Shown: positions 15,318 through 26,159 of the stretch, one piece after another
Numbering within the stretch: the first letter of the stretch is position 1
How the letters are laid out: the number at the start of each line of letters is the position of its first letter
Source: Caproicibacterium amylolyticum
GTDB taxonomy: Bacteria; Bacillota; Clostridia; Oscillospirales; Acutalibacteraceae
Direction: 5' to 3'
NCBI RefSeq assembly: GCF_014467055.1
Contig: NZ_CP060696.1
Span: 1,550,001-1,614,000 of the forward strand
DNA: 64,000 nt
Program-made: the position numbers and the translations under genes
The notes under the pieces: model-generated
Databases searched by the model: none
Told to the model about the DNA's origin: nothing
The model's input: only the letters and a program-made list of their open reading frames with translations

Positions 15318-16171
15318 TTACGCAAGGCCAAGAAGCCTTGCACCATTTGCGACGAATGCACACAGCAGTAAGCCGCATCCGGTTGGCAGCGCCGCAGCCA
15401 GCGCCGTCCATTTCCAAGAACCGCTTTCTTTTCGGATTGTAAGCATCGTAGTAGCACAGGGCCAGTGCATCAGACAAAACAGTACTACACAAACGGCTGT
15501 TACCCAAGTCCATCCGTTGCTCACCAACAATGTCTGCAAAGAAGCGTAACTGCCAATGTCGGTCAGCTGCCCCATGCCCAAGTATCCCATTAAAATAATT
15601 GGCACAACGATTTCGTTAGCCGGGAAGCCAAGGATAAACGCCAGCAGGATGACGCCATCCATGCCAAAAAAATGACCGATCGGATTCAGCGCCCCCGCAC
15701 AGATAGCAAGCACCGTACTATTGCCGATTTTCAAATTTGCCAGCAGCCAAAGGATTAACCCCGCAGGAGCAGCAACAGAAACTGCCCTGCCCAGAACAAA
15801 AATTGTTCTGTCCAACAGTGACCGCACCAGCACCCGGCCAATCTGCGGCTTTCGGTAAGGCGGCAGTTCCAGTGTAAAGGAAGATGGTACGCCTTTTAAG
15901 ACCGTTGCAGACAAAAGCCTTGAGATAAGAAAGGTTGCAAGAATTCCAAGTACAACAGTTGCAAAAAGGATCAACGCCGCCATTGAAGTCTGCATAATTC
16001 CCGCCATACCACTGACAAAAAAGATGGAAATAATCGCTATCAGCGTCGGGAAACGTCCATTGCACGGAACAAAATTGTTTGTCAGCATCGCAATTAGCCG
16101 TTCCCGCGGCGAATCGATAATGCGGCAGCCCGTCACCCCTGCTGCGTTGCATCCAAAGCCCATGCACATGG
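15318..16171 (-). pseudogene. feoB: 3' part of feoB (membrane and gate region), separated by the inserted element
   Basis: About 283 codons, beginning in the middle of a conserved FeoB motif: MCMGFGCNAAGVTGCR, followed by the second gate domain and the C-terminal helices. It lacks the G domain and first helices, which are encoded 8.4 kb away at 24564-25806. The frame joins exactly to the 5' part at the shared 12-bp repeat (CCATGCACATGG, plus strand), giving KQALTMCMGFGCNAAG with no lost codon. An ATG happens to exist at 16169, but there is no ribosome site, so separate translation is unlikely. The original FeoB would have about 694 residues, normal for the family of ferrous-iron transporters. 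Confidence 0.92.
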
Positions 16172-16187
16172 ACTTTATAAATTTGCA
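16160..16187. repeat. Left attachment site
   Basis: The 12-bp core (16160-16171) shared with the right end is followed after 2 nt by the inner arm TTTATAAATTTGCA (16174-16187). Bases to the left of the core are feoB coding sequence. Confidence 0.88.
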
Positions 16188-16231
16188 ATCAATGATTATG
16201 AGCAGACCAGCTTTTTTATCTGAGAAATATT

Positions 16232-17008
16232 TTATTCTTTGCTAAACGGCTCGCATTTATATTGCTGACATTGTTTATTGTCATATAGGATTGCATTCGT
16301 AGGGCAGGCGTTAATGCATCGCATGCAGAACAGACAGTGTTTTTGGAAAATTGGGCCGTCATCCGTCATGCGAATATTGTTCATTGGGCATTGCTTAACA
16401 CAAAGCCCACAGTGTGTACAATCCTGCGAAGCAGAAAAGCGCATAGCAAAAACAGGCATTCCCTTGGTGCAGCCCGACGCAATAAGATGGAATAACGGCC
16501 TTTGCCATGCTGGGACTTGTTCCAAAGAAACTTCTCCGCCTAGCCATTTTCCCAGGAGTGGTTCGATCTGTTCTTGTATGTTTCGCTTGTTTTCTGCTAC
16601 CTTCTGCGGATCTGTAAATTTGAATGATGAAAAAATCATCATGTTATTGGCATACGAAAAACTTTTTGAAACAGTCAGTTTATGATTTTTTTGATCAAGC
16701 AGCCGGCTTAATCCATTAAAATTGGTCGGCAGCGGCCCTGCCTGTGTGCAGAAAGCCAAAGTGGGGATTTCCCTTTTTTGTTCAGGCAGTTCTTTCCTAA
16801 TATAATTCAAAATATGTAATACAGGGTATTCATAATATTTTGGGAAACCGATGATTAAGGAATCATATTGGGTGTTTGCAAGGTCTGCGCCATCTTCAAT
16901 TGAGTGAATTTCGACTGAAATGTTTCGCTTGAGCAGCGCTTTTTCAAACCTGCAGGCGATGTCTTTGGTATTCCCAGTTCCGCTAAAATAAAGAATCAAT
17001 GTGCGCAT
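16232..17008 (-). CDS. EFR1-family protein: flavodoxin-like domain plus two [4Fe-4S] ferredoxin motifs
   Basis: 258 aa from the ATG at 17008, which has GGGAG 9 nt upstream. Residues 1-150 are flavodoxin-like, with the FMN phosphate loop YFSGTGNTKD. The C-terminal part has two four-cysteine cluster motifs, CTHCGLCVKQCP and CLFCMRCINACP. Proteins of this layout are annotated as EFR1-family ferrodoxins and probably shuttle electrons between flavin and iron-sulfur centres. The gene lies downstream of a PNPOx-like flavoprotein, and the two may form a redox pair. It is the cargo gene nearest the left end of the element. Confidence 0.85.
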   Translation of the reverse strand: MRTLILYFSGTGNTKDIACRFEKALLKRNISVEIHSIEDGADLANTQYDSLIIGFPKYYEYPVLHILNYIRKELPEQKREIPTLAFCTQAGPLPTNFNGLSRLLDQKNHKLTVSKSFSYANNMMIFSSFKFTDPQKVAENKRNIQEQIEPLLGKWLGGEVSLEQVPAWQRPLFHLIASGCTKGMPVFAMRFSASQDCTHCGLCVKQCPMNNIRMTDDGPIFQKHCLFCMRCINACPTNAILYDNKQCQQYKCEPFSKE

Positions 17009-17045
17009 ATTCATTTTCTCCCTAGTCAGGCGGTCGTACAAGTAC

Positions 17046-17579
17046 TTAGCAACTGACGACACGCAATTCCACATTATTTCCTAATGATAAATGCTGCCGT
17101 GTACTATAGCCTAATTTCTTAAATCCGGACCATAGAAAGTCAAATTTAGTAGGTGTAATGCAAATGAGATACAGTGGATTCGGCAACTTCCTAAGCGATT
17201 CAGCCGGGAGTTTTCTGTAATCCAGCAAACTCATGTACGCATCTGACCACGGTTCTATCATTGCTGCAGTGCCGGTGACCTGCAGTCCTCCCAACTTGTC
17301 AAAACCAGTGTAAGGGCCATAAATAGCAAGACATACATTGGAATTTTCCTGCAGTGCAGAGAATTTGAGACCGCCTTCTGAAAGGATCCAGAACTTACCT
17401 CTAGCATAATTGTATTCGATTGGTGTGCATCGAATAAATTCACGGCAGCCAGTTGCCAAAGCGCAGGTGTTGTGTGCCAAGACAAATTGCTCTATCTCTT
17501 TGAGAAGAGAATCGCTGTCCATGTGGCGTGCGCAAGCGTCTTTTTTCTCCCAATAAGAAGCGGCTTCCTGATAATCCAT
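17046..17579 (-). CDS. Pyridoxamine 5'-phosphate oxidase-like flavoprotein
   Basis: 177 aa from the ATG at 17579 (GAGG about 10 nt upstream). It has the split-barrel pattern of the family, with NTCALATG, RCTPIEYNY, KFWILSEGG and NVCLAIYGPY. These proteins bind FMN or F420 and reduce varied substrates; only a subset make pyridoxal phosphate, and the local context gives no sign of that pathway. It ends 37 bp before the EFR1-type gene, which suggests co-transcription. Confidence 0.8.
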   Translation of the reverse strand: MDYQEAASYWEKKDACARHMDSDSLLKEIEQFVLAHNTCALATGCREFIRCTPIEYNYARGKFWILSEGGLKFSALQENSNVCLAIYGPYTGFDKLGGLQVTGTAAMIEPWSDAYMSLLDYRKLPAESLRKLPNPLYLICITPTKFDFLWSGFKKLGYSTRQHLSLGNNVELRVVSC

Positions 17580-17774
17580 TTTATTGTGCCTCACTTTCAA
17601 CCTTATTAATTTAAGTATAGCAGAAAGCAATCAAGAAAATAAGCATAATATGTATTTGTATTTGCTACCGAATGTCCAGTTGACCATTTTACCAACCATC
17701 TGGATTTTTCAAAATTGTACCCTATATGAACAGCAAGCATTCAATCCGCTGTCTAAGAAGCCGAATTTGTATTT

Positions 17775-18536
17775 TCATTTTTTGAGTATTCGCTTTAAGT
17801 AGTTGACATCTAACAGCAAATTCACTGTCTCAAAATTCCCTTTATAAAACACGCCCCAGTTATTGAAAACACAAGGCAATTCCTTGGCTTTTTGCAGCGT
17901 ATCCATTTGAATTAGAGAGACAGGAACGTCATGCGTTTCACAATACTGTTTTATCATCTCGATGTTTTGACAGACATAAGGGCATTGCATATCATAATAA
18001 ATTGTTAGCTCTTTGCTTTCGATTTTCGAGACTTTGGCATTTTGTGTGAATTTGGGTGTTGTTCCGTCAAAAGAGAGTGCAAGCAATTCATATCCATTAT
18101 CCGTAGTATCAACGACCTCAAAACCGAACTTCTTTGCAAATGATTGGTCAGTTAGTCATGCTTTCTGCTTCTTTGCTCCAAGCATGCAAACACCAGATTT
18201 ACCCTTTTCTTTGGCATCGGCCAAACAATACTCCATCAGCGCTTTCCCATACCCTTTTCCTTTGTAACTACCAGAAACCCATAAGCAATACAGGTAATAA
18301 TAGTTGTCACCAATAATGGGGACCCAAGCAGTTTCAAGGGGAGCATATTCAATAAAGACCGTGGCTTTTGCATTTAACTTTCGAAAGACATGGCCTTCCT
18401 CTAGTCGTTCAGAAAGCCATTGCCGCTTTGCCTCAACACCTGGATGTGGCTTTCTGCTGCGGATAATGCAGCAAAGATGCTCATTGGCAAGATTTTCTGC
18501 CATTAGGTTTACAAAATCAGTATTCACATTTTCCAT
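17775..18536 (-). pseudogene. yoaP: GNAT acetyltransferase with YoaP-like C-terminal domain, interrupted by in-frame TGA
   Basis: 253 codons in one frame, the length of Bacillus YoaP. Residues 1-125 are a GNAT domain (GSYKGKGYGKALMEYCL acetyl-CoA loop). The rest contains a thioredoxin-like YoaP domain with YYDMQCPYVCQN. A TGA at 18156-18158 (GCA TGA CTA) interrupts the frame between KKQKA and LTDQSFAKKFGFEV; a Trp codon TGG would fit the position by a single G-to-A change. No other stop or frameshift is seen. Either a recent nonsense mutation or a read-through codon. Two products of 126 and about 103+ residues would otherwise result, the second without a ribosome site. Confidence 0.8.
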
Positions 18537-18800
18537 TCTGCCACCTCATTATCGCTTTAAATGCAAATTGGTTTATCTGCTAGTTGAATTATACAAATAA
18601 TTGAATTATGCTGTCAAGGAATTCCACAAACATTTAATATGCAGCCCACATTTGCCGCCGAGTTGTTGCAATGGATTTTCTATTGTATGAAACGAATGCA
18701 CGATAAGATGAAAGGCGCATCCAACCAGAAAAAGCCAGAACCGAAGCCCCATCTCTATTCCAGTAATTCTAATATTAACATCATGCAATTAAAATATCAG

Positions 18801-19667
18801 TCAATTAACAGTCTGCTTTTTCTCTTCTCCCAAGGTCACTAGAATAAGGGATCCTAAAATAAGTACTGATCCCAGAATTGCTGTAACAGTTATTGAATAA
18901 TGAAAAACAATCGTACTGACAACGAAGCTTGTAATCGGTTCGAGCATATTTATAAATGATGACTTCCCTGCTCCCAAAATTCCGATTCCGGCATTCATCA
19001 AGATAAGTGCTGTGCAAAGCATTATACCAACCAAAACACTTAGCTCTATGTTCTCTGCTCCTGACGGCAGAACTGCAGATTTTGTAAAAATATTTGTTAT
19101 CAATGCAGCTATTGCTACAAATAGATTTAAGTAAAAGGATCTTGCCATAAGAGGTACCTTTGCAACAGATGATTTATCATTGGATATCATATAAAAGCCA
19201 TATGCAAACGCTGTTGCAATAGCGACGAATACACCTCTTTTGTCTCCCGAAAAGTCGCCTCCAGACAATAATATAAGTCCGACAATCGAAAGAACAATTG
19301 CTCCTACTTTTCCCTTAGTTAATTTTTCCTTGTATACAAATACCATGGTCATACACACCAGTGACGGATAAAGAAAATGTATCATAGTTGTGAATCCAAC
19401 CGGAATCATTGTATAGGATGTGTTAAGCAGATAATCCGTCAAAAACAATCCCAATATTCCTGTTAGTGCCAATGACCCAAACATCTTCTTGTCAAGTTTA
19501 AAGCTTTCTCTTCTTATCAACCCTATGATTAAAGACGACAGTCCAGCCACTGAATTGCAAACTATCACCATTCCTAATGGTGTTGCTCCTGTTGTCATTA
19601 CATGTTCCTGAATAGATGGATAACTGCCAAATAATATTGAAGCTAAAATTACGAATAAGTATCCCAT
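18801..19667 (-). CDS. EamA/DMT-family transporter
   Basis: 288 aa, ten membrane helices in two EamA repeats (about 5-135 and 150-280). Family motifs such as GLFLTDYLLNTSYTMIPVGF and the C-terminal GSVLILGSLILV are visible. Members export or import amino acids, nucleosides or other metabolites; the substrate is not evident. The start has AAGGAGG 7 nt upstream. A leader of about 110 nt with several hairpins and an intrinsic terminator precedes it, so expression is probably controlled by transcription attenuation. It is the only cargo gene with such a leader. Confidence 0.85.
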   Translation of the reverse strand: MGYLFVILASILFGSYPSIQEHVMTTGATPLGMVIVCNSVAGLSSLIIGLIRRESFKLDKKMFGSLALTGILGLFLTDYLLNTSYTMIPVGFTTMIHFLYPSLVCMTMVFVYKEKLTKGKVGAIVLSIVGLILLSGGDFSGDKRGVFVAIATAFAYGFYMISNDKSSVAKVPLMARSFYLNLFVAIAALITNIFTKSAVLPSGAENIELSVLVGIMLCTALILMNAGIGILGAGKSSFINMLEPITSFVVSTIVFHYSITVTAILGSVLILGSLILVTLGEEKKQTVN

Positions 19668-19687
19668 TTTGTTTCCTCCTTGACTGC

Positions 19688-19852
19688 AAAAAAAGGCCAG
19701 GCAAGATTAATATCTTGTCTGGCCATAAACTCTATGTCCATCCGGGAAATCTGCAATGCAGACCACCTTGCAAGGTAATTTTCATACCGTCCGATACTTT
19801 AATAAAATACATCATTTTTTTTAATTCGTCAACCCAATGTTAAAAAATTGCA
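19688..19852 (-). promoter_or_regulatory. Structured leader with terminator upstream of the EamA gene (candidate riboswitch)
   Basis: Minus-strand promoter TTGACG (about 19828) and TATTTT (17 nt later) lead into a leader with hairpins GGTA-N7-TACC, CCTTGCAAGG and TCTGCATTGCAGA. A flanking ATCGG...CCGGAT pairing could close them into a multibranch junction. A 13-bp terminator hairpin (19695-19724) and a T run follow, then the ribosome site. I do not recognise the class; it lacks T-box, cobalamin, TPP or SAM signatures. Confidence 0.55.
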
Positions 19853-20056
19853 GCATTTTTCATTTATATCTCTCCACCGCTCCAATTTGATGGCGAACAT
19901 GGACGAATGCAAAATAGCACTACTGCAAGGGAAATGAAACAGTGAGGAGTTTAAGCAAGGTACTGCAAAATTGGTGTGGTAAAGTAAAGTTGTAACACCC
20001 CTGACCTGCCTTCAAAAGTCATCCAGATAGAAAGTTGGTGCTCACCTTCTGGCCGA
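19853..20056. other. Spacer between the EamA leader and the YyaL-like gene
   Basis: About 200 bp without a credible gene. I see no RNA gene or repeat in it. Confidence 0.5.
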
Positions 20057-22093
20057 TTAGACTAAAAGATGTTTCAAGTCGTGCAAATTGTGTACCGGGG
20101 CAGCGCAGGTACCACCTTTGCAAAGGTAATAAGCAGTTCCGTCTTTCGGAAACGGATATTCTCTGGTAAACGGTGCCGATTTGGCGAGCACAAGCTGGTT
20201 TTCTCTCGTTTTTATCAGTGTGGACAACAACGGCAGCTCATTTTCCTGCAAAAATTTCTTGAGTTCAGCGGAATTCTGCCCGTCAGTCGTGACACATACA
20301 AGTTCCTGAGAAGAATAAAGCTCCTGCATAAAAGCGAATAGGGCGGCACTGTGTCCAGCTGGATATTGCCGTATTTGTCCCGCAAGGTAAGCAAGTTGTT
20401 TCTCTTTGTATTCAGTCCACTTTTTTTCGCCGGTAAGTCGAGAAAGCCGGGCAAGTACCAAGGCAGCAACCGAGTTGCCAGACGGGATAGCACCATCGTA
20501 GGTTTCTTTGGGCCGGGTGATAAGCTGCTGGCTGTCATTGGCATATAAAAAGAAACCGCCTTTGCTTTCGTCAAAAAAATATTCGATCATCTGATCAGAT
20601 ATTTCCGTCGCCCGTTCCAAATAGTCTGCGTTAAACGTTGCATCATAGAGCTTCAGCAGTGCAAACGCAGTAAATGCATAATCATCCAGCTGCCCGGCAT
20701 ATGCGGCTTCCCCATCACGCCAACGGTGGAGTAAACGTCGATTTCCATCAGTCAGGTGTTCTTGGATGAAATTCCAAGCCGTTTCTGCGGCGGTTCGGTA
20801 AGCAGGTAACTGCAGCAGCCTCCATGCGTCGGCCAGCGCTGCAATCATCAGTGCGTTCCACGCCGTCAACACCTTGTCATCCTTATGCAGGCTTGTTCGT
20901 TTAAGGCGGTACTGATATAGTTTTTTACAAAGCTCTTTAATGTGCGGCGGGGTTTCCTCATACTCCGAGTTCTCAATCAGATTGGGGATACTTTTACCTT
21001 CAAAGTTTCCCGTCGTTGTAATTCCGTACCACCCACAAAAGGTGTCCCCATCTTCCGGCCCCAGTACAAGCTGAATTTCTTCAGGAGTAAACACATAATA
21101 TTTGCCTTCAACACCATCGCTGTCCGCATCCTGTCCGCAATAAAAGCCACCATTCTCACCGTTCAACTCGCGCAGCACGTACCCGATTGTGCGTTCTGTG
21201 ACTCGGCGATACAGTGGACGCCCGGTTCGATGGTAGGCTTCAAGATAAACACTGGACAGCAAGGCATTATCATAAAGCATTTTTTCAAAATGAGGCACCA
21301 GCCATTTTTCGTCAGTGGAGTAGCGCGAAAATCCGCCTCCGATATGGTCAAAAATCCCGCCGCGAGCCATCTGCGTCAGCGAATATTCCACCATTGTTTG
21401 GGCTTTTTTATCTTTTTCCAAACCGGCATACTCCCAAAGGAAAAGCAAATTATGCGGCGTCGGGAATTTCGGGGGATCACCGAATCCACCCCAACGTTCG
21501 TCATAAGTTTGTTCAAACCACAAACACGTCTTACGCAGTGTGTTCCTGTCAATTTCGGCAGAAAGATGTGAATTTTCTTCTGTCTTCTGCAGCATGGCAA
21601 CAATTTTATCCCCGGTAACTGTCAGCCTTTCACGATTTATCTTCCATTGATACGCCACAGTATCTAACAGATTGAGCAGTCCCGTCATACCATAACGAGA
21701 GTATTTTGGTAGATAGGTCCCCGCCCAGAACGGCCTTTGTTCTGGTGTCATCAAGATTGTCAGCGGCCAACCGCCCGAACCTGTCAGTGCCTGACAGACT
21801 GACATATAAACAGCATCTACATCGGGACGCTCCTCTCGGTCCACTTTTATACTGATAAAATTTCTGTTCAAAGAGGCCGCCACTTCTGCGTCTGCAAATG
21901 ACTCATGTGCCATTACATGGCACCAGTGGCAGGTGCTATAGCCAATGCTCAAGAATATGGGTTTGTCTTCTGTTTTTGCTTTTGTAAAGACTTCATCGCC
22001 CCACGGATACCAATCGACAGGGTTGTGGGCATGCTGAAGAAGATAAGGAGACTTCTCGTAAATCAGATGGTTTGAATATTCCTTAAAAGACAT
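20057..22093 (-). CDS. YyaL/SSP411-like protein: thioredoxin-fold domain plus glycosidase-like toroid
   Basis: 678 aa from the ATG at 22093 (GGGAG upstream). Residues 1-165 are the DUF255 thioredoxin-like domain with [17 protein letters not shown] and the CHWCHVM motif. The remainder is an (alpha/alpha)6 barrel like that of N-acylglucosamine epimerases and glycosidases ([30 protein letters not shown]). The family is widespread (human SPATA20) and its activity is not established. A single gene with its own spacing, it is the largest cargo gene of the element and adds to the redox theme of the neighbouring EFR1 and PNPOx genes. Confidence 0.88.
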
Positions 22094-22562
22094 TACAATT
22101 ACTCCCAACGTTATTTAGGTCTATCCGTAATTAAGCCCAAAATTCTCGGCACTATACTTTTAAGGTAGAATTAATCAATTTCTCAAGCTTTCTAACTTAT
22201 AAAGAATTGGCACATACTGTTTCATAACTTTCCTAATTTCGGTACAATCAGGGCTGCCCACACTCGTACAACGATTATTGAATGCCCAATGAGGCAAGAA
22301 ATGAATTGAATCAATTTAGACAGTGATGTTACAAAAATGCTTGACCATTACTCGTGGAATGACACCGTCGATTTTTATAAGGAAGAAAAGGCTTCTTGAA
22401 AAATCATCTTGCATAGTTTAGCACTGTACCCAACAAGCCAATTTATGATAGCCGCGCTTTTGAACTCCTGTACAGCAGGTTTCTAAAATACTGCCAACGG
22501 ATACGGGAGAATGGCTTACAATTTCATCAAGCATCTTTTGTAGCCACATTAGAACATTTGTT
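22094..22562. other. 469-bp gap in the element, no gene assigned
   Basis: AT-rich with scattered stops in all frames. A short plus-strand stretch near 22334-22400 reads MLDHYSWNDTVDFYKEEKAS and could be a decayed coding remnant, but nothing supports expression. No RNA gene or repeat recognised. Confidence 0.4.
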
Positions 22563-22763
22563 TTATATCTTTTTTACGGTCTCATCAGGCTGTTCTTTCG
22601 CGGAATCTTCGCAATAGCGTCTTGCCATTGTTACAAGCAGCTGGTAAGCAACCTTTGTAGTTTCATTGACGGGTACATAGTACCCATCAACTGAGTCCCG
22701 CACGCTTCCATCTGCCATGGTATGTATCACTTTTGGATGAAATGGTTCCTTCTGCTTTTTCAA
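22563..22763 (-). CDS. Small protein of unknown function near the recombinase
   Basis: 66 aa, charged, without membrane segments (MADGSVRDSVDGYYVPVNET is the core). The sequence pattern MADG-(T/S)-VR-(D/E)-S followed by VPVNET recalls short proteins often found in Clostridia beside integrases, but I cannot name a family. It lies in the right part of the element, pointing away from the recombinase. Start from ATG at 22763 with AGGTGATG upstream. Function unknown. Confidence 0.55.
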   Translation of the reverse strand: MKKQKEPFHPKVIHTMADGSVRDSVDGYYVPVNETTKVAYQLLVTMARRYCEDSAKEQPDETVKKI

Positions 22764-23140
22764 AGTGCATCACCTCTCACAATGGTTATGCATGAAAAAT
22801 TGGTTTATTGCTTGTCCCTCCTGTCAATTTTGTTTCACTGGACTTTTCAGGTCGTTCCTGCCTCCGCCTGTTTTTGGTAAATTTAAAATCTATAAGGAAA
22901 GCACTTAATATGACGCAAACTGATTTTGGTAACAGCATAGAAATGGAATAGGCAACGATAGAGCAAATAGAAGATTGACACTGAAGCTGCAGCCTAACGA
23001 AAATGACTTGAAGTAACAGGTTTTCCAAACGTCATTGCGTGACACGCCCCGCCATAAGCAGAGGTACAACTTGAGAACCTTCTATTTTATAATTATCCAA
23101 TCATTAAACCGGAACCAGTTCCACTTTTGGGGTGATTACC
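22764..23140. other. 377-bp gap upstream of the recombinase
   Basis: The divergent control region between the 66-aa gene and the recombinase gene. A minus-strand frame at 22786-23028 has no ribosome site or recognisable motif and I do not call it. No clear promoter consensus stands out. Confidence 0.4.
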
Positions 23141-24547
23141 ATGGAAAAATCCTTTACGCACGTTGGGTGTTATGTCCGAGTATCTACTGAAAATCAGCTT
23201 GAAAATTACAGCATTGGTGAGCAAACTGAGCGTTTAGGCGCATACTGCAAAGCAAAAGGATGGCATATTTATAAATTCTACCCCGACCCCGGCTTTTCAG
23301 GCGGCAATATGAACCGCCCAGCATTGCAACAAATGCTTCAGGATGTTCATGCCGGCCTTCTTGATATGATAATTGTTTACAAATTGGACCGTCTGAGCCG
23401 GTCGCAAAAGGATACGCTAACGCTTATTGAAGATGAATTCCTGGTAAATAACGTAGAATTCACATCCATGAGTGAGAACTTTGACACTTCCGCTCCACTT
23501 GGTCGGGCTATGATTGGCATTCTGTCTGTTTTCGCACAGCTGGAAAAGGACCAGATAACCGAGCGTTTCACCATGGGACGAATTGGTCGCTGCAAAGCAG
23601 GGTACTTTCATGGCGGCGGCAATGCACCGACCGGTTACAACTATGTAAATGGTAAGTTAGTCGTTGATGATTACAAAGCCGAACAAGTACGCTTGGCATA
23701 TCAAATGTTTCTTGCCGGCTCCAATGTGAATGCAATTTGCAATACACTGCACGAAAAATTTGGTAGTTGGAACAATTCCACTTCTGTCTATAACGTATTG
23801 CACAATTCCCTCTACATCGGTAAAGTAAAATTCAAAGGAAAAGAATTTGATGGTGTACATACACCAATTATCAGCAAAGAAGACTTTGAACAAGTCCAGC
23901 AACTCTTTCATTCTTCAAAACGTGCAAAAAAAAAGAATGGCTATACAAAAACGCCATTCAGAGCAAATTATCTGCTTTCAAGTTTGATTTACTGTAAACA
24001 TTGCGGTGCACGGTATTCAGCGAATCATGGATATTATAAATGCTACTCACGCTCCAAAAGTGAGAAGAAGTACATTGTAGACCCAAACTGCAAAAACAAA
24101 AATTATGAAATTTCTGAGTTAGATAAACTGGTTATTGATGAGATACACCGAATAAAATACGACAAAGAATATTTTGATAAAGTTTTAGGACAAAGACCGA
24201 CCAATCAAAAAGCGAATGAACATAAAGCTATACAGAGTTCCCTTAATGACATTAAAATACAGATTGCACGACTTCTGGATTTATACCAGGTTGGCTCTTT
24301 GCCAATTGAAGAAATATCAGACCGCATGGATAAATTACAAACAAGGAAAAACTATTTTGAAAAGGAGCTTGCATCTAGCCAAAGTGAAATTGATGCGCCT
24401 TTGAAAATGTTTATGGGAGCGCTTGCGAGTATGGATACCGTATTATTAAAGAAGGGAACACTTGAAGAAAAGCGGCTTCTGATATCCACCCTCATTAAAT
24501 CCATATGGATTGATGAGGACACAATAAATATTAAATGGCGCATCTGA
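23141..24547 (+). CDS. Large serine recombinase (site-specific integrase)
   Basis: 468 aa from the ATG at 23141 (GGGGTG 7 nt upstream). Resolvase catalytic domain at about 1-150: YVRVSTENQ with the nucleophile serine, YKLDRLSRSQKDT, SENFDTSAPLGRAM and QLEKDQITERF. Then a recombinase domain (about 160-265), a zinc ribbon (SLIYCKHCGARY...CYSRSK, about 285-330) and a C-terminal coiled-coil region. This is the enzyme that would insert and excise the element. Its stop codon touches the inner repeat of the right attachment site, the usual layout for such integrases. No excisionase (directionality factor) gene is obvious; the 66-aa protein is a candidate by position only. Confidence 0.95.
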   Translation: MEKSFTHVGCYVRVSTENQLENYSIGEQTERLGAYCKAKGWHIYKFYPDPGFSGGNMNRPALQQMLQDVHAGLLDMIIVYKLDRLSRSQKDTLTLIEDEFLVNNVEFTSMSENFDTSAPLGRAMIGILSVFAQLEKDQITERFTMGRIGRCKAGYFHGGGNAPTGYNYVNGKLVVDDYKAEQVRLAYQMFLAGSNVNAICNTLHEKFGSWNNSTSVYNVLHNSLYIGKVKFKGKEFDGVHTPIISKEDFEQVQQLFHSSKRAKKKNGYTKTPFRANYLLSSLIYCKHCGARYSANHGYYKCYSRSKSEKKYIVDPNCKNKNYEISELDKLVIDEIHRIKYDKEYFDKVLGQRPTNQKANEHKAIQSSLNDIKIQIARLLDLYQVGSLPIEEISDRMDKLQTRKNYFEKELASSQSEIDAPLKMFMGALASMDTVLLKKGTLEEKRLLISTLIKSIWIDEDTINIKWRI

Positions 24548-24575
24548 TGCAAACTTATAAATACCATGCACATGG
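24548..24575. repeat. Right attachment site
   Basis: Inner arm TGCAAACTTATAAA (24548-24561), 2 nt, then the 12-bp core (24564-24575) shared with the left end. Bases to the right are feoB coding sequence. The inner arms of both ends are inverted copies with one mismatch at the same 2-nt distance from the core. Confidence 0.88.
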
Positions 24576-25806
24576 TAAGTGCTTGCTTTCCGCACGCATG
24601 TGCCTTTTTGAAATTGTGATCCAAGTTAAATGCCACACGCGGCAAGTACCCAAAGTCCTCCAAAAGCGTAAAGCATGGAAAGAAAATGGCCATTGGCGGC
24701 AGCATCACACTGACAACCCACGCAAGCGTACGGTAAACGCCCATTACTAACGGCCCGGTCAACCATTGTGGTGCGCCGATACTCTGCAAACCGCTTAGCA
24801 TCGCATCCTGAAGTGCAAACAATCCAGTAGAAAGCAAATCAGAAGGATAATTTGCACCAGTAATCGTCAACCAGAGAACCGCTGCTAACAGCGCCAGCAT
24901 AATAGGAATCCCTGTTGCACGGCTGGTCAGCAGATGGTCTAGTTTGCGATCCCGCATTGCGGCAGGGCAGTTTTCCCGTACCACGCAGCTGCGATAAATC
25001 TGCTCCGCACGCCGCACCAGCACCGCCGTGATTTCATCACGCAACGCATCCTCTGACAATCCATTCTTGCGCAGAGTGGCTTTTTCATCCTTGATTTTTC
25101 CTTGCAGTTCTCGATCTTGCAAAAGTGCCGGGCAGTACGTTCGCAAGCTCTCTAAAAAGCTCTTATCGCCGTCAAGCAGGCGAAGTGCAAGCCATCTGGC
25201 ACCGGAATCTGGTCTATATTTTTCCACTTGCAGCAGAACAGAAGCAACTGCCTGCTCAACCTCCGGCGGGTAAGTTATCTGCACAGCCGGGCGTTCCGGC
25301 AAATCTGCCAATGCGGTTTCCAAAACATCCAGTCCGCCGCTGCGGGCACTTACCCCCACTACCGGCACACCGCCCAATTCCTGTGAAAGCCGCTGCAAAT
25401 CAATTCGAATATGCTTTTTCTTTGCCTCGTCCATCAGATTTACGCAGACCACAACGTTCCCCGTGATTTCCAGCGTTTGCAGTACAAGATTTAAATTTCG
25501 TTCCAAACAGGTTGCATCACACACAACTACCGCCGCCTGTGCCTCACCAAAGCACAGATAATCCCGCGCAACTGTTTCTTCCGCCGAATGTGCAAACAAG
25601 GAATACGTGCCCGGTAAATCAACTAAGCTGTACGTTTTATTTTGAAAGACAAATTGCCCCTGCGCAGTTTCTACAGTTTTTCCCGGCCAGTTTCCAGTGT
25701 GCTGATGCAGACCGGTCAATTCATTAAATACAGTGCTTTTCCCCACATTTGGATTGCCTGCCAACGCAATGGTGCGTGCATTGGCAGGTATTGCTTCCGC
25801 ACACAT
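24564..25806 (-). pseudogene. feoB: 5' part of feoB (G domain and first membrane region)
   Basis: 414 codons of true FeoB: G1 GNPNVGKSTVFN, G3 DLPGTYS, G4 NLMD, a helical GDI-like region, then the first gate domain (LPPMAIFFPCFTLLEDFGYLPRVAFNLDH). After TMCM the frame enters the inserted element and continues for 70 unrelated codons, antisense to the recombinase gene, to a stop at 24352. The 3' part is at 15318-16171. FeoA is encoded immediately upstream. As it stands the permease cannot be complete, so Feo-type iron uptake should be off unless the element leaves. Confidence 0.92.
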
Positions 25807-25808
25807 GT

Positions 25809-26045
25809 TTAAACCTCAGACAGCAGCACACAACCCGCATCTTCTTTTCTTAGTGCAATCACCGCTCCCCGAATTGCATATGCAGTTGGGTCACCCGACG
25901 GTGCCTGCAGCAGACAATCCACCTTTGTACCTTCAATTAACCCGATATCCTGCAAACGGCGGCGCATGGGACCGGTCGCAGTCAGTGCGGCCACTCGCCC
26001 CCCACCCCCCGGAATCAGCGCATCCAGCGGCGTTTTCTCATTCAT
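25809..26045 (-). CDS. feoA: Ferrous-iron transport accessory protein FeoA
   Basis: 78 aa SH3-like FeoA domain (PMRRRLQDIGLIEGTKV and AIRGAVIALRKEDA). The start at 26045 is taken for its GGAGGG ribosome site; the longer frame has none. Two bases separate it from feoB, showing translational coupling. Its product helps FeoB. With feoB split, FeoA may be made without a partner. Confidence 0.9.
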   Translation of the reverse strand: MNEKTPLDALIPGGGGRVAALTATGPMRRRLQDIGLIEGTKVDCLLQAPSGDPTAYAIRGAVIALRKEDAGCVLLSEV

Positions 26046-26159
26046 GGCAAAGCCCTCCTTTATTGTTCTTCTTATAGTATAGCGGATTTTGTTCTTCTGG
26101 TGCATAACTTCATAATCAGCGTCTGAAGAATTTAAGATTGCGCCGGTCTCACAGTCCGT

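Follow-up and report, generated by a model that had tools for sequence, protein, structure and literature searches.

Why should a gene for a ferrous-iron transporter lie in two pieces on a bacterial chromosome, with both pieces kept in good order, and is it ever made whole again? The question is raised by a stretch of 64,000 nucleotides from Caproicibacterium amylolyticum (contig NZ_CP060696.1, positions 1,550,001 to 1,614,000; hereinafter the window, to which all coordinates below refer), in which feoB (15318–25806, minus strand) is cut in two by an element unit of 8,404 bp coding for a large serine recombinase (LSR). That this is a site-specific insertion by the LSR into feoB is virtually certain. 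As the best explanation of the locus as a whole, we propose an LSR element of the A118/TP901-1 type that is excised from feoB in some cells or conditions, and we regard this reading as probable.

The N-terminal part of the gene, core repeat included, occupies 24564–25806 on the minus strand and carries the Pfam domains FeoB_N and FeoB_Cyto; the C-terminal part, from MCMGFGCN to the end, occupies 15318–16171 on the same strand and carries Gate and FeoB_C. As it stands, the open reading frame (ORF) of the N-terminal part reads through the ...GKQALTMCM codons into the element and reaches a stop at 24352. A 12-bp direct repeat, CCATGCACATGG, lies at both element ends (16160–16171 at the C-half junction and 24564–24575 at the N-half junction), with no third copy on either strand of the window. 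Joining the flanks in a script yields a single frame of 694 codons and a stop, and neither half contains a stop or a frameshift. The intact feoB of a congener (G006) is 86% identical to the joined flanks over residues 1–694; it is one residue longer than the joined frame, and the junction aligns without a gap. The insertion point falls in the feoB codons just ahead of the conserved GFGCN motif. A preliminary description of this locus had claimed that a serine-recombinase element of 8.4 kb splits feoB and that the halves join in frame at a 12-bp repeat such that excision would restore the gene, both of which are borne out. The window and G006 also share the upstream neighbors FtsY, RdgB and FeoA, with feoA (25809–26105, minus strand) directly upstream of feoB; its homologs likewise directly precede the feoB N halves of relatives.

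The LSR itself (23132–24547, plus strand; 471 amino acids) has an intact reading frame with Resolvase, Recombinase and Zn-ribbon (Zn_ribbon_recom) domains, all three above the Pfam cut-offs, and matches the phrog_95 integrase family (4e-120). Its relatives of solved structure, by matches to the PDB, are the TP901-1 and A118 integrases, and the phage records among the matches listed are 35–44% identical to it. The 3′ end of its gene and the N-half core are 16 bp apart. The arms flanking the two cores (16172–16195 and 24540–24563), which would derive from the attachment site of the element (attP), form an inverted repeat with an alignment score of 11, a value reached by none of 1000 shuffles.

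The split is not peculiar to the genome at hand. This feoB is present in nine of the 11 genomes of the genus, the window's own (G000) included, being intact in two of these (G005 and G006), split at the same residue with the halves on one contig in five (G000, G003, G004, G007 and G010), and distributed over separate contigs in two, both of them drafts (G001 and G002). In the two drafts, the end of the N-half contig and the start of the C-half contig are the same over 24 bases from the core (L088–L091), so that the N half runs into empty-site sequence. We read this overlap as an assembly branch at the site, and hence as a mixed population, with a mixture of strains or other assembly effects also being possible. 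In G004 and G010 the same site holds insertions of about 40 kb, and that of G004, with terminase-, portal- and RecT-like ORFs (read by eye), is a prophage.

Comparable splits are found across the family and the order. Among 300 genomes of the family, 150 have a feoB match at E ≤ 1e-82; among the matches listed, the N-terminal ones end at residues 414–418 (site A) in at least 10 genomes, the window's own included, and at 452–455 (site B) in at least 8, with an LSR confirmed for part of these 18. Five genomes besides the window's own were seen to have the same-place split with both halves on one stretch (G007, G003, G184, G161 and G064). An LSR lies between both feoB halves on one contig in 19 genomes, albeit with one half cut by a contig end in G652 and G345, and these LSRs fall into three lineages. 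Lineage I (G000, G004, G010, G184 and G501), with 52–65% identity to the window's LSR, and lineage II (G003, G007, G161, G064, G345, G340, G652, G486, G607 and G487), with proteins of 508–568 amino acids and 22–27% identity to it over parts, are distantly related LSRs that use the same site, A, with junctions a few bases apart. Lineage III (G151, G305, G214 and G102; 26–29% identity over parts) is a third lineage at a second site in the same order, namely site B at the VPCNGRFP codons. The junctions were read by eye, and automatically detected repeats are meaningless for G007, G003, G064, G151 and G305. The window element is a member of a recurrent class of LSR elements at this place in feoB.

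The preference of the LSRs for feoB can be gauged from the 394 genomes of the order. All five lineage I hits with at least 52% identity, the window's own included, adjoin feoB, this line having been drawn after the data were seen; the next hit (G595, 51%) is on an 11.4-kb contig that lacks feoB. Lineage II hits at E ≤ 1e-110 occur in 16 genomes and lie in feoB in 10. As for the other six, G520 has no feoB within about 9 kb on each side and G547 none on its 6-kb contig, and the flanks of G312, G352, G544 and G557 were viewed over about 1.5 kb or less. Elsewhere, G204 and G222 show an N half with a lineage III LSR and no C half in the stretch, FeoB residues 394–681 of G612 are located 2.2 kb past an LSR, and FeoB of G041 begins at residue 371 near an LSR; no LSR is present in the fetched stretches of G129, G295, G236 and G181. 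A search of genome contigs with the LSR returned only four distant loci, and a search of viral contigs with a single LSR returned no match. Two further arrangements were observed. G340 has one feoB in three pieces with two LSR elements (L163 7046–11217 and L182 2394–5660), an LSR_I-like one (37%) around residues 347–367 and a lineage II one at site A. In G524 (L159 607–10555) feoA and the N half, the latter with a lineage I LSR beside it, are preceded by the C half in inverted orientation, a possible inversion.

Relatives of the C half were also sought among database proteins, within length limits that leave out full-length FeoB. The GxGCN motif stands at residue 2, 4 or 6 in 75 of the best 120, which shows that the C-half form is widespread and says nothing on its frequency. 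Nine of these 120 truncated FeoBs (P0146, P0154, P0156 and similar) begin at residue 303, the start of the membrane part, which could be another split point or an effect of gene calling.

The age of the insertions and the constraint on the split genes can be assessed by comparing relatives. In the genus g220, the order apt, permease and LSR after the feoB N half is common to G652, G486, G607 and G457. The synonymous divergence (dS) in these comparisons is unsaturated (0.49–0.99), being alike in cargo and flanks and somewhat higher in the LSR. Since the cargo has diverged about as much as the flanks, the insertion most simply predates these species, and on this sequence comparison the g220 element appears to be older than several species. 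Ratios of nonsynonymous to synonymous divergence (dN/dS), computed by NG86, are 0.078 (G652/G486), 0.192 (G486/G607, 187 codons) and 0.122 (G457/G652) for the N half, and 0.124 (G486/G607), 0.171 (G590/G607) and 0.115 (G511/G590) for the C half. They are 0.103–0.189 for the LSR, and for the same genome pairs chromosomal genes other than feoB give 0.065–0.241. Both feoB halves and the LSR are therefore under purifying selection while split. The pairs G003/G007 and G214/G102 also show silent-site divergence of cargo and LSR about that of the flanks. The insertions of about 40 kb in G004 and G010 were likewise considered as proof of vertical inheritance and dropped: dN/dS is low (0.035 for the N half and 0.019 for the C half), but the insertions share parts only.

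Distances between LSRs track those between the FeoBs that they interrupt, with r = 0.85 in lineage II (0 of 2000 permutations), r = 0.79 in lineage I (12 of 2000) and a weaker r = 0.42 in lineage III (100 of 2000), the distances of G204 being approximate as the fetched stretch contains part of its LSR. Measured against the intact gene of G006, the split copy of the window's species shows no acceleration: counts of unique residues in G000 versus G006 are 12 versus 19 in the N half and 4 versus 16 in the C half with G007 as the outgroup, and 13 versus 14 and 6 versus 12, respectively, with G003.

Constraint on the C half raises the question of how it would be expressed while detached from its N half. 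At site A, the C-half starts of 16 out of 19 genomes show no Shine–Dalgarno pairing (+2.0 to −2.6 kcal/mol), compared to −5.2 to −12.5 kcal/mol for the N-half starts, which are biased toward strong values as the best of several in-frame starts; random 20-mers have a median of −2.2 and a 10th percentile of −5.6 kcal/mol. The test missed G326, G501 and G487, and the lines for site B and G006 hit an uninterrupted site A and are uncounted. That a gene should be constrained when its second half probably goes untranslated in the split state makes best sense if it is whole at times. Because in several lineages the halves and the LSR are under purifying selection, and the 16 C halves read are without ribosome-binding sites, it is proposed on this indirect evidence that excision probably occurs and matters.

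Under this proposal, the LSR together with a directionality factor would excise the element in some cells or conditions, re-forming a FeoB of 694 amino acids and releasing a circle with the cargo. The integrated state would be the default in sequenced DNA. The element would work in the manner of skin and gin, the reconstituted gene being that of a second ferrous-iron transporter. A candidate for the directionality factor is a protein of 66 amino acids of the BOW99_gp33 family (22563–22763, minus strand; NCBIfam NF047423). It is found in seven of the eight site A lineage I genomes and in none of four LSR_I-like loci elsewhere, the pattern that a directionality factor specific to the LSR should show. 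Three of 28 viral-contig loci with a related LSR also have a match (E below 1e-5), and one of the three (L238) has a feoB junction. Among the same 28 loci, two (L242 and L235) have an attP that, by eye, is unrecombined, with the same core, TATGTGCATGG, 20–35 bp past the LSR match; two others (L247 and L238) continue into feoB, at residues 416 and 409.

The most serious alternative is that feoB is an ordinary hotspot for mobile elements, wherein the conserved GKQALTMCMGFGCN codons constitute a good chromosomal attachment site (attB) that phages and islands enter time and again, and a redundant feoB is merely inactivated. The good state of the gene would then be owed to the recency of the insertion or to strains of the population with an empty site. 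The prophage of G004 and the insertion of similar size in G010 agree with this, as do the intact genes of the congeners G005 and G006. So do the feoB junctions in two of the 28 viral-contig loci. Redundancy agrees too: of the genomes with a split or truncated feoB, 32 were tested, and each has another FeoB_N gene (PF02421) with a frame of at least 626 amino acids. An earlier impression that the split feoB is the sole FeoB of G214 and G102, which came from a search at E ≤ 1e-60, is withdrawn, PF02421 finding a second FeoB in both. Against the hotspot stand the shared apt/permease/LSR element of the four g220 genomes with its constrained halves and dS near that of the flanks, and the LSR–FeoB distance correlations of lineages II and I, that of lineage III being less telling. 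Furthermore, no intact copy for the window's species, G003 or G007 is among the best 120 of a search of 5.8 billion proteins, while the database has their split forms (P0350, P0121, P0122 and P0123, the first two being of the window's species). On balance, we consider the hotspot somewhat unlikely.

That last result cuts both ways, and it belongs with several observations that weigh against regulated excision. With split forms listed and the intact form not, any excised state would have to be rare, short-lived or limited to a subset of cells. The presence of another FeoB in all 32 genomes means that the split gene may be dispensable and its loss tolerated. No congener carries the window's own element, which hence has no cross-species vertical evidence of its own, and the insertions of G004 and G010 look like ordinary lysogeny. 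The dS of the LSR exceeds that of its neighbors in g220, many dS values in the G003/G007 and G214/G102 comparisons are near saturation, and the purifying selection could stem from unsequenced empty-site strains. Below 52% identity, some of the loci with LSR_I-like hits have no feoB (G595 and G410). The case for the 66-amino-acid protein, a candidate on the strength of co-occurrence, is tempered by its gene lying on the strand opposite to the LSR, by relatives in viral contigs without a feoB junction, and by its absence near the LSR of G359 in the fetched stretch.

A second alternative is that the insertion has become fixed in this species, with feoB now decaying. Only split forms are seen for the species, the genome has two other FeoBs, and one cargo gene looks broken (see below); however, the halves lack any stop or frameshift, have not accelerated against the intact gene of G006, and accompany an LSR with an intact frame, which makes such a dead end very unlikely. 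Least credible of all is that the halves act as two separately translated polypeptides with no need for excision, for which one may adduce their constraint and the in-frame ATG or GTG at which the C half opens in the 16 site A genomes read, as those genomes have no ribosome-binding site before the C half and, in G214 and G102, whose split is at site B, the LSR stop is followed in frame by a C half that has no start codon before it (by eye).

Returning to excision as the favored reading, what might control it? The preliminary description had held that ferrous-iron uptake by Feo is off in this organism, which cannot be maintained as the genome has two further FeoB genes whose frames are open over 669 and 729 amino acids. 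It had also named, as what would speak against a switch, the lack of an excised form together with an intact second feoB elsewhere, and with these two genes half of that is found. Nothing in the analysis links excision to iron, and control by iron is decidedly improbable. Control by sporulation is less so, yet still unlikely; Spo0A_C, the sole spore gene looked at, is present twice in the genome, making a sporulation program in the host possible. Overall, control by cell type or growth stage fits better than free phase variation.

The remaining genes of the element, all on the minus strand, are those for a DUF255/Thioredox_DsbH protein of 683 amino acids (20057–22108; PF03190), an EamA-family transporter (18801–19667; PF00892), a GNAT acetyltransferase fragment (18156–18536; PF00583), a YoaP-like C-terminal fragment (17775–18086; PF14268), a weakly matching PNPOx-like protein (17046–17630; PF01243, 27.9 bits against a cut-off of 28.1) and an EFR1-family flavodoxin/ferredoxin (16232–17074; NF038196, 154 bits against a cut-off of 75). 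The GNAT and YoaP-like fragments are adjacent ORFs on one strand (17775–18536) and probably one broken gene, given what we take to be the usual architecture of YoaP. Pfam hits for the ten ORFs scanned in the element include no phage structural or conjugation genes. Of the iron–sulfur and flavin proteins that had been ascribed to the element, the EFR1 flavodoxin/ferredoxin stands, and the flavin-related PNPOx-like protein falls just under its cut-off.

Related elements range from 2.6 kb in G345, where the LSR is the sole ORF above 90 amino acids, and 3.2 kb in G184, where it is nearly so, to the approximately 40 kb of G004 and G010. As judged from reading their ORFs, their cargo includes the lysine/diaminopimelate genes lysA, ddh and dapA at site B in G214 and G102 (L112 3386–8303; L113), malate/lactate dehydrogenase and malic enzyme in G305, hemerythrin, CheC and CheD in G501, apt (adenine phosphoribosyltransferase) and an Ncs2-type permease in G607, DUF523, MEMO-AMMECR1 and radical SAM genes in G003 and G007 (L081 4020–6735; L080 4765–7475), as well as polysaccharide genes. 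There is one dapA-like match in G214 and two in G102. As the cargo of these relatives concerns unrelated metabolism, the iron–sulfur and flavin cargo of the window element is probably incidental. MEMO-AMMECR1 has one match in nine of the 11 genomes of the genus, lying within the feoB element in G003 and G007 and at other places (in drafts, on other contigs) in seven, with no match in G000 and G006; on one reading, the ancestor of the latter two may have lost a MEMO-AMMECR1-bearing element from feoB.

The closest known kind is that of the gene-intervening elements skin and gin, and the element is predicted to work like them, no membership being claimed. The gin element in gerE of Bacillus cereus is a non-phage element with a serine recombinase, a directionality factor and a short core repeat (PMC5595907). 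The window element resembles it in being a gene-splitting non-phage element with a serine recombinase, a core repeat, an att inverted repeat and precise reconstitution (PMC5595907), with excision here predicted and the directionality factor a candidate; it differs in that gerE is a sporulation regulator, whereas here the target is feoB, hit at two or three positions by several LSR lineages and across many genera. In sigK and spsM, skin and SPbeta similarly interrupt a gene which excision restores (PMC5025042, PMC4191935), SPbeta and the skin element of C. difficile having serine recombinases (PMC5595907). These are likewise integrated, gene-interrupting elements, but act during sporulation. 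Phage A118 inserts in comK (PMC10794523); its integrase is of the same family (37% identity) and its target gene is split in frame, and the G004 element is, by eye, also a prophage, whereas the window element has no phage structural genes among its Pfam hits.

Lineage II presumably corresponds to the TnpX-type clostridial recombinases, which it resembles in LSR size (about 510–570 amino acids) and in the phrog_95 family; the sole TnpX match is a weak PDB one of lineage I. The difference lies in the residence of lineage II in feoB in 10 of 16 genomes. We found no report of feoB as the target of such an element in the literature searched, which has no bioRxiv preprints and few subscription papers, and PMC10483418 and PMC10794523, in the portions available, do not treat it as an insertion site. 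The developmentally excised elements named above sit in sporulation genes (PMC5595907, PMC4191935, PMC5025042).

For the order as a whole, we tentatively entertain, as a possibility short of an even chance, that feoB is a programmed split gene, whose elements persist through speciation with useful metabolic cargo and switch a second ferrous-iron transporter according to cell type or condition. Such a system would have arisen no fewer than three times, at two or three places in the one gene. Excised elements are also known from the nitrogen-fixation genes of heterocysts, namely the cyanobacterial nif elements. The two LSR lineages joining within a few bases of each other are useful raw material for integrase engineering. 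If true, the proposed system would be the metal-transport counterpart of skin and the cyanobacterial nif elements and would extend programmed excision to nutrient uptake, open to tests in culturable genera.

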